The notes beneath the pieces are model-generated. The model worked only from the letters and a program-made list of their open reading frames with translations. It was not told the DNA's origin and searched no databases. Below are positions 5,797-15,448 of a stretch of 64,000 nt of DNA, one piece after another. The DNA comes from Gammaproteobacteria bacterium (GTDB taxonomy: Bacteria > Pseudomonadota > Gammaproteobacteria > HK1), in assembly GCA_022824305.1 (NCBI GenBank), contig JAJEAD010000011.1, forward strand, positions 124,001 through 188,000, read 5' to 3'. The position numbers and the translations under genes were made by a program. Positions within the stretch are counted from its first letter, which is position 1. Every line of letters starts with the position of its first letter.

Positions 5797-6614
5797 GACA
5801 CCTCCACGGGCAGGTCTTCCCGATTTCCCCACTCCGACCAGGAACCCGGGTAACCACGCACCCGCGGGTAGTCCAGGCTCTTGAGCATGACGTAGCTCTG
5901 AGAGGAACGGTGGTGGGTCTGGCAGTAGGTGATCACCTCCCGATCCGGGGTGATCCCCCGAGCCTCGAGCATGGCGCGCAGCACCGGGTCGGGCTTCAGT
6001 CGCCGGTGCCGGGCCTCGTCCATCGTTTCAGTCCAGTTCAGATTGACCGCACCGGGAATGTGTCCGCCCCGCAGCGCGCGGCGGTCCCGGCCGGAGAACT
6101 CGTCCGGAGAACGGGCGTCGAGAAGGATCGTGTCGCCGTCTCCGAGCCGCGCCCGGACATACTCCACATCGGCCAGCGCCTCACCGCTGAGCACGGCCCG
6201 GTAGCGGCTCGGTTGTGACTCGGCGATCTCCTCGCTGATCTGCAGTCCGGCCGCCACCCAGCCCGCGAACCCCCCGTTCAGCAGCGATCCGCCGGGGTGG
6301 CCCAGCGCGTGGAGCGTCCACAGGAGGCGCGATGCGTGTCCTCCGCCCTCGTCGTCGTAGGCGACAACGTGCCGATCGGGCGCGAAGCCGATTCCGGCGA
6401 GCGCATCGGACAGCCGCTCCTCGTCCGGCACCTGTCCCGTGGCGGGCTTGGAACCGCTCACGAGCCGGGAGTACTCCAGCGACCGCGCGCCGGGCAGATG
6501 TCCGGCCCGGTACTGTTGCGGGCTCCTGAGGTCGACCAGGAGCGTGCCGTTCGCATCGAGCGCGCGGGAGAGCACCTCGGGCTCGACGAGCAGCGGAAAG
6601 CGGGGCATGCGCAT
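5793..6614 (-). CDS. Two-domain rhodanese sulfurtransferase (SseA-like)
   Basis: A 273-residue protein with two rhodanese modules. The N-terminal one has VDLRSPQQYRAGHLPGA near residues 25-41. The C-terminal one has LLDARSPDEFSG and the active-site loop ITYCQTHHRSSQ, with the sulfur-carrying cysteine. Such enzymes move sulfane sulfur from thiosulfate or 3-mercaptopyruvate to cyanide or cellular thiols. The loop CQTHHR differs from both the CRKGVT of classical thiosulfate sulfurtransferases and the CG(S)GVT of mercaptopyruvate enzymes, so substrate is unassigned. It heads a two-gene operon with metZ and follows a promoter with an operator-like palindrome. Confidence 0.85.
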   Translation of the reverse strand: MRMPRFPLLVEPEVLSRALDANGTLLVDLRSPQQYRAGHLPGARSLEYSRLVSGSKPATGQVPDEERLSDALAGIGFAPDRHVVAYDDEGGGHASRLLWTLHALGHPGGSLLNGGFAGWVAAGLQISEEIAESQPSRYRAVLSGEALADVEYVRARLGDGDTILLDARSPDEFSGRDRRALRGGHIPGAVNLNWTETMDEARHRRLKPDPVLRAMLEARGITPDREVITYCQTHHRSSQSYVMLKSLDYPRVRGYPGSWSEWGNREDLPVEVS

Positions 6615-7426: not shown

Positions 7427-7455
7427 TTGACGCTCCTCCGCGTCTGGAACATACT
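7427..7455 (+). promoter_or_regulatory. Strong sigma70-like promoter of the cysB leader
   Basis: TTGACG (7427-7432) and CATACT (7450-7455) are separated by exactly 17 bases, an excellent match in such GC-rich DNA. The predicted transcription start, near 7461-7463, falls on the ATG of the cysteine-rich leader ORF, so the transcript would be leaderless. Confidence 0.65.
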
Positions 7456-7461
7456 GCCGCA

Positions 7462-7557
7462 ATGAAGCGCGACCGGTGCCCGCCCTGCGTCTGTATCTGT
7501 CCCCGGATGAAGCTCCGGGCGGCGTGCGCTGGTCGAACGGAGGGAGAGTGCCTCTAG
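7462..7557 (+). CDS. Putative 31-residue cysteine-rich leader peptide upstream of cysB
   Basis: ATG at 7462 to TAG at 7555-7557. Six of 31 codons are Cys (residues 6, 9, 11, 13, 22 and 29), with four packed into RCPPCVCICP. It begins at the predicted +1 of a good promoter, has no ribosome-binding site, and ends 31 bases before an intrinsic terminator that precedes cysB. This is the arrangement of amino-acid attenuation leaders such as trpL, but with cysteine as the sensed residue. A metal-binding or copper-sensing upstream peptide is the main alternative, since CxxCxCxC could bind metal. Translation of the peptide is not proven. Confidence 0.6.
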   Translation: MKRDRCPPCVCICPRMKLRAACAGRTEGECL

Positions 7558-7603
7558 CCTGATCTCGGGACTCTTCCCCTCCCCCTGAAAGCCACCACCC
7601 GGG
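7501..7603 (+). promoter_or_regulatory. Candidate attenuator: mutually exclusive RNA helices in the cysB leader
   Basis: CCCGGA (7502-7507) can pair with TCCGGG (7514-7519), loop TGAAGC. The same CCGGG plus following CGGCG can instead pair imperfectly with CCACCACCCGG, the 5' arm region of the terminator (7592-7602). A ribosome paused on Cys codons 6-13 would cover 7502-7507 and favour the second pairing, preventing termination. A further helix of 11 base pairs with two bulges joins 7539-7549 to 7570-7582 across the stop codon. Helices were found by eye; energies were not computed. Confidence 0.4.
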
Positions 7604-7626
7604 CCCCCGGCTGGTGGCTTTTTTCG
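7589..7626 (+). terminator. Intrinsic terminator in the cysB leader
   Basis: AAGCCACCA (7589-7597) pairs perfectly with TGGTGGCTT (7612-7620) around a GC-rich loop, and the T-run continues to 7624. It lies between the leader ORF and cysB, 46 bases before the cysB start, so cysB transcripts from the 7427 promoter must read through it. Confidence 0.8.
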
Positions 7627-7672
7627 TTTTGGAGCGCGCCCGGAACTTCCCAAACTCCCAAGGACCACTGCC

Positions 7673-8584
7673 ATGAAGCTACAGCAACTGCGCTATTTCG
7701 CTGCCGTCGCGCAGAACAATCTCAACATCTCGGCCGCAGCCGAGCGGCTGTACACCTCACAGCCGGGAATCAGCAAGCAGATCAAGATGCTGGAGGACGA
7801 GCTGGGCATGGCGCTCTTCCGGCGCTCGGGACGCAGCCTCACCGCCATGACCGACGCCGGAGAACTCGTGCTGGAACGCGCCCACCGCGTGCTGCGCGAG
7901 GTCGAGAACATCCGCCGGGTGGCCGCGGACCTGCGCGGCAGCGAGGACGGCACCCTCTCCATCGCGACCACCCACACCCAGGCCCGCTACGTGCTTCCGG
8001 AAGTGATCTCACGCTTTCGGCAGCGCTTTCCCAAGGTACGGATCGAGCTGCACCAGGGCACTTCGGAGCAGATCGACTCGCTCTTCTCGGAAGGCGAGGT
8101 GGACCTTGCCATCGCTTCCGGCAACTCCACCCCCACCAGCGCCATCACCTTTCCCTGCTACCGCTGGCGCCCGGTGGTGGTGGTCCCCGAGGCGCATCCC
8201 CTGGACGGGCTCGAAAGGGTGGGCATCGAGCACATTGCGGAGCATCCGCTCATCACCTACTCGTTCAGCACCCGGCCCGGCTCTTCGCTGCTTCGCCCCT
8301 TTGCCGACGCCGGACTCGAGCCCAGAGTCGCGCTCACCGCCCGCGACGCCGACATCATCAAGACCCATGTCAAGCTGGGCCTCGGGGTCGGAATCATCGC
8401 CGGAATGGCTTTCGATCCCGACGACGACAGCGGCCTGCGCGCCATCGAGGTAGCGGACCTCTTTCCGGAGATCACCACGTGGGTGGCGGTCCGCCGGGGG
8501 CTCCACCTGCGCTCCCATGCCGTGACCTTCATCGAGTACTTCGCGCCCAGCCTGGCGGGCAAGATCACTACCGAGGTCATGTGA
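7673..8584 (+). CDS. cysB: LysR-type regulator of sulfur assimilation, CysB
   Basis: A 303-residue LysR-family protein. The N-terminal winged helix begins MKLQQLRYFAAVAQNNLNIS and continues with TSQPGISKQIKMLEDELG, very close to gammaproteobacterial CysB. The effector domain has the CysB-like TTHTQARYVLP and LHQGTSEQI. CysB senses N-acetylserine or O-acetylserine and sulfide/thiosulfate and activates cysteine genes. It is slightly shorter than the 324-residue E. coli protein. AAGGA lies 11 bases before the ATG. The leader upstream carries a promoter, a Cys-rich ORF and a terminator, so expression may be tuned by cysteine supply. The next gene's GTG overlaps its stop. Confidence 0.9.
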   Translation: MKLQQLRYFAAVAQNNLNISAAAERLYTSQPGISKQIKMLEDELGMALFRRSGRSLTAMTDAGELVLERAHRVLREVENIRRVAADLRGSEDGTLSIATTHTQARYVLPEVISRFRQRFPKVRIELHQGTSEQIDSLFSEGEVDLAIASGNSTPTSAITFPCYRWRPVVVVPEAHPLDGLERVGIEHIAEHPLITYSFSTRPGSSLLRPFADAGLEPRVALTARDADIIKTHVKLGLGVGIIAGMAFDPDDDSGLRAIEVADLFPEITTWVAVRRGLHLRSHAVTFIEYFAPSLAGKITTEVM

Positions 8585-9747
8585 AGGAGCCGGAAGCGCG
8601 CGGCGCCGGCTCCGAACCGGAGGGAATCAGCACCGCGCTCAAGGCGCGGATTCGGGAGGAAATCCACGCGCAAGGGGGCACGCTCCCCTTCTCGCGTTTC
8701 ATGGACCTCTGCCTGTACGCGCCGGGCCTCGGCTACTACCGCAACGCCGCGCCCAAGTTCGGGCCGGCGGGCGACTTCGTCACCGCGCCGGAAGTCTCCG
8801 CTCACTTCGGCAGATGCGTGGCGCGCCAGGTGGCGGAGGTTCTCGACCGGGTTCCCGACGCCGCGGTCCTGGAGGTCGGCGCGGGCTCCGGGCGCCTGGC
8901 CTCCCAGGTGCTGCATGCGCTCGCGGGGCAAGGCCTCGAGCCTCCCTACCTGGTGCTCGAATCGAGCGCGGAGCTCAAGCGCCGACAGGCGGAGCACCTG
9001 CACGGAGAAGGACTCGGAGGGCGCGTGGAGTGGCTCGACGACCTCCCCGCCCCCGGATTCCAGGGAGCGGTCGTGGCGAACGAGCTGATCGACGCCTTCC
9101 CCGCAAGCCTTCTGCGGGTGACGGACGGGGCAGTGCAGGAGGCCCACGTCGTGCACGAGGACGAGGCCTTCCGACAGGCATGGCGGGCGCCGTCCCGCGA
9201 AGCGGCAAGTGCGTGGGAGGCGATTCACCGGGATCTCGAACACCCCCTGCCGGCGGGCTATGTCTGTGAGGTGCAGCTCGCCGCCCCGGCGTGGACAAGG
9301 GCGATGGGGGCGCGGATCGCGCAAGGAATGCTGCTCCTCATCGACTACGGCTACCCCCGGCGCGAGCTCTACCACCCCGACCGTCGCACGGGCACCCTCG
9401 TCAGCCACTACCGCCACCGGGTGCACCACGATCTGCTCGTCCGCCCCGGCCTTCAGGACCTGAGCGCCCATGTCGACTTCACCGCGCTTGCGCGCGCGGG
9501 AGCATCGGCCGGGCTGAGGGTGGCCGGGTTCACGACCCAGTCCGAGTTCCTGCTCGCGACCGGGCTGCTGGCGCAGGGAGAGCGATTGGCGCCCGGCAGC
9601 GACGCCTATCTGCAATTCGCCCGCGCCGTGAAACGCCTCACCCTGCCGGCGGAGATGGGCGAGGCGGTCAAGTATCTCGCGCTGACCCGCGGCATCAACG
9701 GCCCGCTCGTCGGATTCGGCGGCCGCGACCACCGTCCCCGTCTCTAG
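8581..9747 (+). CDS. MidA/NDUFAF7-family SAM-dependent methyltransferase
   Basis: A 388-residue protein with the features of the MidA family: GTLPFSRFMDLCLYAPGLGYY near residues 29-50, FGPAGDFVTAPEVS, the SAM-binding loop VLEVGAGSGRLA, and NELIDAFP. In mitochondria NDUFAF7 dimethylates an arginine of a complex I subunit; bacterial roles are less clear. The GTG at 8581 overlaps the cysB stop (ATGTGA), so the genes are probably co-transcribed. A longer in-frame start at 8479 lies inside cysB and was rejected. Confidence 0.85.
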   Translation: MKEPEARGAGSEPEGISTALKARIREEIHAQGGTLPFSRFMDLCLYAPGLGYYRNAAPKFGPAGDFVTAPEVSAHFGRCVARQVAEVLDRVPDAAVLEVGAGSGRLASQVLHALAGQGLEPPYLVLESSAELKRRQAEHLHGEGLGGRVEWLDDLPAPGFQGAVVANELIDAFPASLLRVTDGAVQEAHVVHEDEAFRQAWRAPSREAASAWEAIHRDLEHPLPAGYVCEVQLAAPAWTRAMGARIAQGMLLLIDYGYPRRELYHPDRRTGTLVSHYRHRVHHDLLVRPGLQDLSAHVDFTALARAGASAGLRVAGFTTQSEFLLATGLLAQGERLAPGSDAYLQFARAVKRLTLPAEMGEAVKYLALTRGINGPLVGFGGRDHRPRL

Positions 9748-12141: not shown

Positions 12142-12927
12142 TCAGCCCTGTCCCTGGATGCCCCACTTCTCGTTGAGCGACTCGAAGTAGCCGCCCTCGT
12201 GCTGGATGCGCATCCAGTTGTTGAGAAAGTTGAGCCACACCTGGTCGTCCTGGGGGACGATGAACGAGAGCGGCAGGCTGTTCGCGACGGTCTGGAAGGG
12301 AATCACCAGGTCTTCATGGGTGTCGGAGAGCTCGCCCGCCTCCAGGATGCTCGAGATGGTGATGTCCACCCGCCCCGCCAGCAGGTCCTGCCAGTCCCGG
12401 GCCGGTGATTCCACCTCCTTCCTCGTGGCGTTCGGGAGACGCAGCTTCACGAAGTCGGCAAAAGAGGTTCCCAGGTTGTAGCCGACGGTGACCTCCGGAT
12501 TGTTCAGGTCCTCCCACGTCTCGAATCGATCCGCCAGCTCCCTGCGGGTCAGGGGCAGGTAGCCGGTGCGGCCCCAGGGGATGGTGTATCCCGCCGCTTT
12601 CGCTCGGGTCACGGTCATGGAAGTACCGGTCATGGCGATGTGGTACTTCTGGGCGACCACGCCGTTGATCAGGGTCTTCCAGTCGGTAGCCACGAACTCC
12701 ACCTCCACCCCCATGTCGGCGGCGAGCTGCCTGGCGGCGTCGATCTGGTGGCCCCGGTACTCCTTGGTCTCCGGATCCTTGAACGACATGGGGTTGAAAT
12801 CACCCGTGGTCCCCACCTTGAGTGTCCCGCTGTCGAGGACCTCGTGAAGGATGGAGCGCTCCTGTGCGGCTGCCCCTCCGCAGGCCACCGACAGCGCGAC
12901 GGCAAGTGTGCCAAGCCATTTCATCAT
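12142..12927 (-). CDS. Periplasmic polar amino acid-binding protein of an ABC transporter
   Basis: A 261-residue family 3 solute-binding protein with a clear signal peptide (MKWLGTLAVALSVACGGAAAQ). The mature part begins ILHEVLDSGTLKVGTTGDFNPMSF, has YRGHQIDAARQLAADMGVEVE, and ends with a typical bilobal pattern. It should capture an amino acid or amino-acid-like ligand outside the cytoplasmic membrane. GGAGGAAGAGACG precedes tandem ATGs, the first at 12927. Its likely permease lies beyond the Rieske gene on the other strand, and no ATPase gene is in the window. Confidence 0.85.
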   Translation of the reverse strand: MMKWLGTLAVALSVACGGAAAQERSILHEVLDSGTLKVGTTGDFNPMSFKDPETKEYRGHQIDAARQLAADMGVEVEFVATDWKTLINGVVAQKYHIAMTGTSMTVTRAKAAGYTIPWGRTGYLPLTRRELADRFETWEDLNNPEVTVGYNLGTSFADFVKLRLPNATRKEVESPARDWQDLLAGRVDITISSILEAGELSDTHEDLVIPFQTVANSLPLSFIVPQDDQVWLNFLNNWMRIQHEGGYFESLNEKWGIQGQG

Positions 12928-14680: not shown

Positions 14681-15448
14681 ATGAAAACGATACGTCTTGG
14701 CCTCGTGGCCTGTCTCGTCCTGGCCTGCGGCGGGTGTGCGAGCTCGCAGACCTGGGGGTGGTACGTGATCAACCCCGTGACGAAGCAGGGGCGAATCAAC
14801 GTCGAGTTCCTGCTCTCCGGGGTGCAGTGGACGGTGGCGCTCACGCTCGCCTGCGTGGCGCTCTCCGTCACTCTCGGGTTTCTGTTCTACCTGCCGCGGG
14901 TGGCGGAGAAGCGCTGGCTCGATGCGCTGAACCGGGGCCTCGTGGAGCTCTTTCGGTCCATCCCGCCGCTGGTCTCCATCCTGTGGGTCTACTACGGCCT
15001 GCCGGTGCTCACCGGTGTCGACCTCAACCCCTTCCTCTCGGGCACGGTGGCGCTGTCGCTCTACGGCGCCGCCTTCATGGCGGAAATCTACCGGGGCGGC
15101 ATCCAGTCCATCGCCCGCGGCCAGTTCGAGGCGGCGGACGGTCTCGGTCTCTCCACCTTCGACAAGATGGTGTTCGTGATCTTTCCCCAGGCCCTGCGTC
15201 GCTGCCTGCCCGCGATGGGCAATCAGTTCGTCATCCTGCTGAAGATGTCCTCCCTGGTCTCGGTCATCGGCCTCGCGGAGGTGGTGCGGCGGGCGAACGA
15301 GCTGGCCGTGACCGAGTACCGCCCCCTGGAGATCTACTCCTTCCTCGTCCTCGAGTACCTGGTGCTGGTGCTGCTGGTCTCGGCCGGGGTGCGCTGGGTC
15401 GAGCGACGGGCGGGCGCCGACGAAGCCCAGCGCATCGGCGAAGGATAG
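14681..15448 (+). CDS. Polar amino acid ABC transporter permease with lipobox-like N-terminus
   Basis: A 255-residue permease of the histidine/glutamate/glutamine family. The family core is clear: SGVQWTVALTLACVALSV, the LFRSIPPLVSILWVYYGLP segment, and the EAA loop EAADGLGLSTFDKMVFVIFPQALR. About five membrane segments are visible. The N-terminus (VACLVLACGGCASSQTWGWY) reads like a lipoprotein signal with a lipobox LACGGC. This is unusual for an inner-membrane permease, although I recall similar starts in some proteobacterial relatives. The partner binding protein is probably 12142-12927. No ATPase follows within the window. Confidence 0.82.
   Translation: MKTIRLGLVACLVLACGGCASSQTWGWYVINPVTKQGRINVEFLLSGVQWTVALTLACVALSVTLGFLFYLPRVAEKRWLDALNRGLVELFRSIPPLVSILWVYYGLPVLTGVDLNPFLSGTVALSLYGAAFMAEIYRGGIQSIARGQFEAADGLGLSTFDKMVFVIFPQALRRCLPAMGNQFVILLKMSSLVSVIGLAEVVRRANELAVTEYRPLEIYSFLVLEYLVLVLLVSAGVRWVERRAGADEAQRIGEG

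Follow-up and report, generated by a model that had tools for sequence, protein, structure and literature searches.

A candidate cysteine-responsive transcription attenuator upstream of cysB in a gammaproteobacterial genome

The control of CysB through ligand sensing and autoregulation is textbook knowledge. Control of sulfur genes through Cys codons in a short upstream open reading frame (ORF) has been described elsewhere. In Rhodobacterales, uORFC-8-2 precedes cysS and is a short ORF whose Cys codons fall within a stem that is followed by an intrinsic terminator; these tandem codons lie at positions 14-15, and it is conserved in 145 alphaproteobacterial sequences (PMC8632094). The cys leaders of actinobacteria carry runs of Cys codons near the stop codon, with no conserved terminator hairpin in Mycobacterium (PMC1262725). 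Leaderless polycysteine small ORFs (sORFs) are cysteine-responsive attenuators in mycobacteria, according to Canestrari 2020 as cited in PMC13236596 and PMC9094748. The first-pass annotation of the window (the whole 64 kb stretch of DNA analysed here) had named the actinobacterial leaders as the known cases, which is right, but the proteobacterial leader before cysS had already been described (PMC8632094). It had also stated that no cysteine leader was known before a proteobacterial cysB, and our search of the literature, mainly open-access, likewise found no cysteine attenuator before this gene. As far as we could find, attenuation is a known type of switch and cysB is a new target for it. 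From sequence analysis and modelled RNA folding, we propose that the leader described here is probably functional, as a ribosome-mediated transcription attenuator with charged tRNA-Cys as its signal and cysB as the gene under its control.

Layout of the leader and its target gene

Direct reading of the sequence confirmed the arrangement that the first-pass annotation had reported, namely a promoter-like site, a 31-codon ORF with six Cys codons, an intrinsic terminator and cysB, in this order. The elements, with the RNA arms defined by folding, are the following.

7427-7455, + strand: sigma-70-type promoter-like site TTGACG-N17-CATACT (TTGACG 7427-7432, CATACT 7450-7455), by direct reading
7462-7557, + strand: leader ORF, 31 codons with six Cys, product MKRDRCPPCVCICPRMKLRAACAGRTEGECL followed by the stop codon
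7470-7485, + strand: arm 1, the 5' strand of the protector, overlapping the first Cys codons and pairing with 7517-7535 (hairpin of -36.3 kcal/mol)
7477-7500, + strand: putative regulatory Cys cluster, codons 6, 9, 11 and 13 (C..C.C.C), the stall site with the largest predicted antiterminator formation
7512-7535, + strand: arm 2, pairing with arm 1, or with arm 3 once a ribosome covers arm 1
7539-7582, + strand: middle hairpin holding the leader stop codon (-19.6 kcal/mol), present in the free and the Cys-stalled states
7586-7604, + strand: arm 3, 5' strand of the terminator and 3' strand of the antiterminator, from folding
7607-7624, + strand: arm 4 and U run, 3' strand of the terminator (3:4 hairpin of -24.8 kcal/mol)
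7660-7664, + strand: AAGGA, Shine-Dalgarno sequence of cysB, by inspection, about 36 nt past the U run
7673-8584, + strand: cysB, LysR-type regulator of 303 aa, best PDB match CysB (4gwo, 1al3; 1e-84)
8581-9747, + strand: SAM-dependent methyltransferase gene (PF02636), overlapping cysB by 4 nt

The promoter-like site is the only sigma-70-like match between positions 6000 and 9500, where 0.1 would be expected from shuffled sequences. No promoter-like site was found in the interval from the terminator to cysB, so the gene seems to need read-through. The overlapping methyltransferase gene is likely to share its transcript. The terminator (7587-7624) is formed by a stem of 7587-7597 with 7612-7622, extended by 7599-7602 with 7607-7610, and ends in six T at 7619-7624; a simple terminator scanner missed it, presumably owing to its stem and loop rules. 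Pairing of arms 2 and 3 around the constant middle hairpin gives -41.2 kcal/mol for the two together; with the hairpin alone and the 3:4 stem at the values listed, the antiterminator is about as strong as the terminator, and it is an interrupted helix with several bulges. The full leader folds with z = -4.2. None of the Rfam 15 families (riboswitches, T-box and known leaders) matched the 64 kb window at gathering score.

Two helices that cannot both form had been proposed in the first-pass annotation, and each needed revision. Positions 7502-7507 are indeed complementary to 7514-7519 over 6 bp, yet the main protecting helix is the longer hairpin formed by arm 1. For 7514-7524 with 7592-7602 the right arms had been chosen, one base out of register with the antiterminator of 7512-7535 and 7586-7604.

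The six Cys codons lie at positions 6, 9, 11, 13, 22 and 30 by direct reading, which amounts to 6 of 31 residues, with four inside a stretch of eight. The ATG at 7462 stands 6 nt past the -10 box, at or adjoining the predicted +1, and this promoter position makes a leaderless start at 7462 plausible. There is no Shine-Dalgarno sequence upstream of 7462, in a genome where sites of this kind precede only about 40% of genes and where the -10 signature of leaderless starts shows no clear enrichment. Codon bias in the leader ORF is not gene-like (log-odds -4.8), and GC3 exceeds GC2 only modestly, a trait shared by predicted regulatory Cys sORFs of mycobacteria (PMC9094748). Translation of the leader without a Shine-Dalgarno sequence and dependence on one genome are the main doubts about the attenuator.

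The AUG at the predicted +1 resembles the leaderless polycysteine sORFs of mycobacteria (Canestrari 2020, as cited in PMC13236596 and PMC9094748), and the same leader might instead act through translational or Rho-dependent control, as proposed for those sORFs, with the hairpin being secondary. We regard this as very unlikely: the present leader combines an intrinsic terminator with an antiterminator fitted to it, whereas Mycobacterium cys leaders lack a conserved terminator hairpin (PMC1262725), and cysB has its own AAGGA beyond the U run.

The gated gene fits the amino acid that the attenuator would sense. Its product is CysB-like by PDB and family matches and keeps the ligand residues T100, T102 and Q103 (TTHTQARY), with a score against the NCBIfam CysB model of 368 bits, below the cut-off of 436. 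A rhodanese/mercaptopyruvate sulfurtransferase-type gene and an O-succinylhomoserine sulfhydrylase gene adjoin the leader, and parts of a polar amino acid ABC transporter lie farther along. The transporter's binding protein comes nearest to cystine-binding proteins, at a score far below the family cut-off.

12142-12888, - strand: polar amino acid ABC transporter part
14705-15448, + strand: polar amino acid ABC transporter part

In the 94.7% complete genome, no match was found for CysI, NIR_SIR (the sulfite/nitrite reductase domain) or CysD, leaving it with neither a recognised sulfite reductase nor an ATP sulfurylase, and the PAPS_reduct domain gave one fragmentary match. This bacterium may lack the capacity for sulfate assimilation. 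Together, the neighbouring genes and the missing CysI, NIR_SIR and CysD would fit a dependence on reduced sulfur; in such an organism it would make sense for cysB to respond to cysteine.

Ribosome position and the folding of the nascent leader

The informative state for an attenuator is the nascent RNA in which arm 3 is present and arm 4 has not yet been made, and we folded truncated transcripts of this kind in a thermodynamic test rather than a kinetic simulation. With a ribosome at Cys6-Cys13, arm 3 was predicted to be sequestered upstream with P 0.77 (9.3 kcal/mol), compared with 0.09 (3.4 kcal/mol) without a ribosome and 0.12 (3.6 kcal/mol) with the ribosome at the stop codon. The resulting contrast for the cysB leader (0.65/5.7, P/kcal) was calibrated on known attenuators of E. 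coli: the trp (0.48/8.4), his (0.49/3.9) and leu (0.52/7.2) leaders behave like it, and the thr leader (0.02/9.7) is alike by energy. None of 300 dinucleotide shuffles matched either contrast value, and none of 1200 random segments of the same genome, joined to the cysB terminator, matched both measures. This calibrated stall-dependent folding, along with the anatomy of the leader and its rarity genome-wide, supports the attenuator reading of the first-pass annotation.

Sequestration peaks with the ribosome at codons 11-14, which include Cys11 and Cys13, and declines once the ribosome has moved beyond codon 17 and occupies arm 2. The effect was robust to footprints of +7 to +16, temperatures of 15-37 C and transcript ends from 7600 to about 7614. 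The antiterminator is opened by a stall at any of codons 2-16, so that specificity rests on the Cys codons alone.

Folding the full leader at equilibrium with a ribosome mask kept the terminator at P of about 0.96 whichever codon the ribosome occupied, a result that at first seemed to speak against an attenuator. The four E. coli leaders gave the same result under this mask; the test therefore cannot discriminate and was dropped. Bare complementarity between the leader and the terminator arm was also set aside as evidence, being not above shuffles (13.8% reach it), unlike the contrast that depends on ribosome position.

The codons at which a stall is effective bear on another reading. The first-pass annotation had offered a metal-sensing role for the CxxCxCxC peptide; more broadly, the growing peptide might respond to a metal or to the redox state instead of Cys-tRNA. 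The motif could in principle bind metal, and copper sensing is known for a nascent exported protein (PMC9973294). A stall would be needed at codons 2-16, a stage at which residues 6-13 have yet to leave the exit tunnel; with the ribosome at codons 6-14, a peptide of 31 residues should stay within it. The product has no evident signal sequence and the downstream gene is a cysteine regulator, not a metal gene. We consider metal or redox sensing highly improbable.

Rarity in the genome and occurrence among relatives

Upstream regions were ranked by the Cys content of their short ORFs, at first in 444 kb (235 regions), where the cysB leader ranked first, and then in 1.62 of 4.98 Mb (800 regions), where it tied for the top. 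A terminator within 150 nt upstream was found for 12 of the 800 genes, cysB among them, and a short ORF together with a terminator in 3 of 800 regions, with the cysB leader being the only one to show a ribosome-position-dependent switch. Elsewhere in this genome, neither the cysK-like nor the cysS-like genes carry a Cys leader.

The other leader with six Cys codons (C97, beginning MLLEGSCHCGAI) was rejected, as it looks by eye like a frameshifted GFA-type coding gene. The upstream ORF at G000:C97:174859-175357, beginning MLLEGSCHCGAIHIRVRSAHLCPFNLCCGCPEES, looks like the opening part of a GFA-type zinc protein and is out of frame with the next gene; a frameshift or a pseudogene is possible there.

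These frequencies allow chance to be weighed as an explanation, that is, a Cys-rich ORF of no significance within a 5' leader of high GC content, a terminator that is constitutive or ends an upstream unit, and an unrecognised promoter for cysB. The CxxCxCxC motif by itself is at chance level, with 10 matches across 4.98 Mb against 30 for the reversed control pattern. Absent conservation among relatives, the missing Shine-Dalgarno sequence of the leader ORF and the unremarkable complementarity of the leader to arm 3 (14% of shuffles) also agree with a chance origin. Against it stand a Cys content ranked 1 of 235 and tied for first of 800 directly before a cysteine regulator, the scarcity of nearby upstream terminators, and the occurrence of the stall-dependent switch in none of 1500 null sequences; in addition, 340 nt separate the end of the glyoxalase gene from the terminator. 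On balance, chance appears unlikely to account for the locus, and a functional attenuator remains the better reading.

The genome is the sole member of its genus in the comparison; 16 others belong to its family, two of them with a good CysB match. No comparable element was found among 109 CysB relatives (29 of the class and 80 from GTDB) at identities of 57% or less. In the family relative G011, cysB starts about 40 nt past a deacetylase-like gene with no leader, and the family relative L018 has no Cys-rich leader. Searches of 17 genomes from the order and 369 from the class returned no homologue of the leader peptide, and the loci of the best non-self peptide matches (L156-L158) carry no such leader. 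The first-pass annotation had named absence from related genomes as grounds for rejecting the attenuator; such absence is what we observe (0 of 109), with little force in a comparison that covers relatives of 57% identity or less, all outside the genus. Turnover of leaders is expected at such distances, so the absence neither supports nor refutes the attenuator, and it leaves no covariation evidence.

Ahead of a Woeseiaceae cysB (L075), the candidate peptide VCCRSFQEYCCRSFF was rejected as the antisense of a divergent cysteine synthase-like gene. By sequence, this gene (L075:2000-2194) starts MIYNNILETIGNTPIVRLN and is divergent from cysB; upstream sequence similar to that of L075 occurs in the Woeseiaceae loci L050, L053, L061, L069 and L079.

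Four Wenzhouxiangella genomes have a SAM-II riboswitch (SAM_alpha) directly before cysB, on the + strand, and their loci also hold SAM-I riboswitches.

L087:3842-3917, L077:3838-3913, L066:3843-3918 and L052:3841-3916, + strand: SAM-II riboswitches (RF00521)
L087:2428-2573, L077:459-601, L066:480-620 and L052:2434-2578, - strand: SAM-I riboswitches (RF00162)

Two classes of SAM riboswitch thus lie near cysB in these four loci. A fifth Wenzhouxiangella (L074) has a similar SAM-II-like sequence by eye, and no SAM-II was found in the other named CysB loci. That SAM-II precedes cysB in a different group of Gammaproteobacteria suggests an under-described role for RNA in controlling this gene.

Proposed mechanism and comparison with known systems

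The analysis provides the elements of the leader, their rarity in this genome and a predicted stall-dependent switch; what happens in the cell, from the start of transcription and leaderless translation through stalling to read-through, we infer from these. RNA polymerase would start at about 7462, and a ribosome would begin on the 5'-terminal AUG. With ample Cys-tRNA, the ribosome would move past codon 17 and cover arm 2, leaving arm 3 free for the terminator (7587-7622) to form and cysB unread. When Cys-tRNA is low, a stall at Cys6-Cys13 would cover arm 1, and arm 2 would pair with arm 3 while arm 4 has yet to be transcribed; the terminator would then fail, and cysB and the methyltransferase gene would be transcribed. 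Without a ribosome, arm 1 would pair with arm 2 and the terminator would form. Charged tRNA-Cys would in this manner set the amount of CysB, and CysB's own ligand its activity. If true, this would be a second, translation-based input to the sulfur regulon, with attenuation acting on a master regulator.

In its sequence and predicted folding, the leader resembles a trp-type attenuator, with a cognate-codon ORF, an intrinsic terminator and mutually exclusive helices set by the ribosome. It shares with the E. coli trp, his, leu and thr leaders the cognate-codon ORF, the 1:2, 2:3 and 3:4 arms and the intrinsic terminator. It would differ from them in sensing Cys, in its predicted leaderless AUG without a Shine-Dalgarno sequence, in gating a LysR-type regulator rather than a biosynthetic operon, and in the extra constant hairpin between arms 2 and 3.

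Compared with uORFC-8-2, the proposed logic is the same and both are proteobacterial, but the target there is cysteinyl-tRNA synthetase and here it is cysB, with Cys at 6, 9, 11, 13, 22 and 30, and the cysB leader is not a member of that family. The actinobacterial leaders are likewise Cys-rich short ORFs, predicted leaderless and placed before sulfur genes. Their targets are cys and cbs genes, whereas the present leader has early, spaced Cys codons (6-13 of 31), an intrinsic terminator and cysB downstream, and it does not belong with them either. The Wenzhouxiangella SAM-II riboswitches are also RNA-level elements directly ahead of a cysB orthologue; unlike the cysB leader, they are aptamers for the metabolite SAM and have no leader peptide. 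A broader proposal we judge evenly balanced between right and wrong: that this is a leaderless cysteine attenuator acting on a master activator, not on an enzyme or tRNA synthetase operon, and that, together with the Wenzhouxiangella SAM-II elements, it marks the cysB leader as a recurrent site of independently evolved RNA control.
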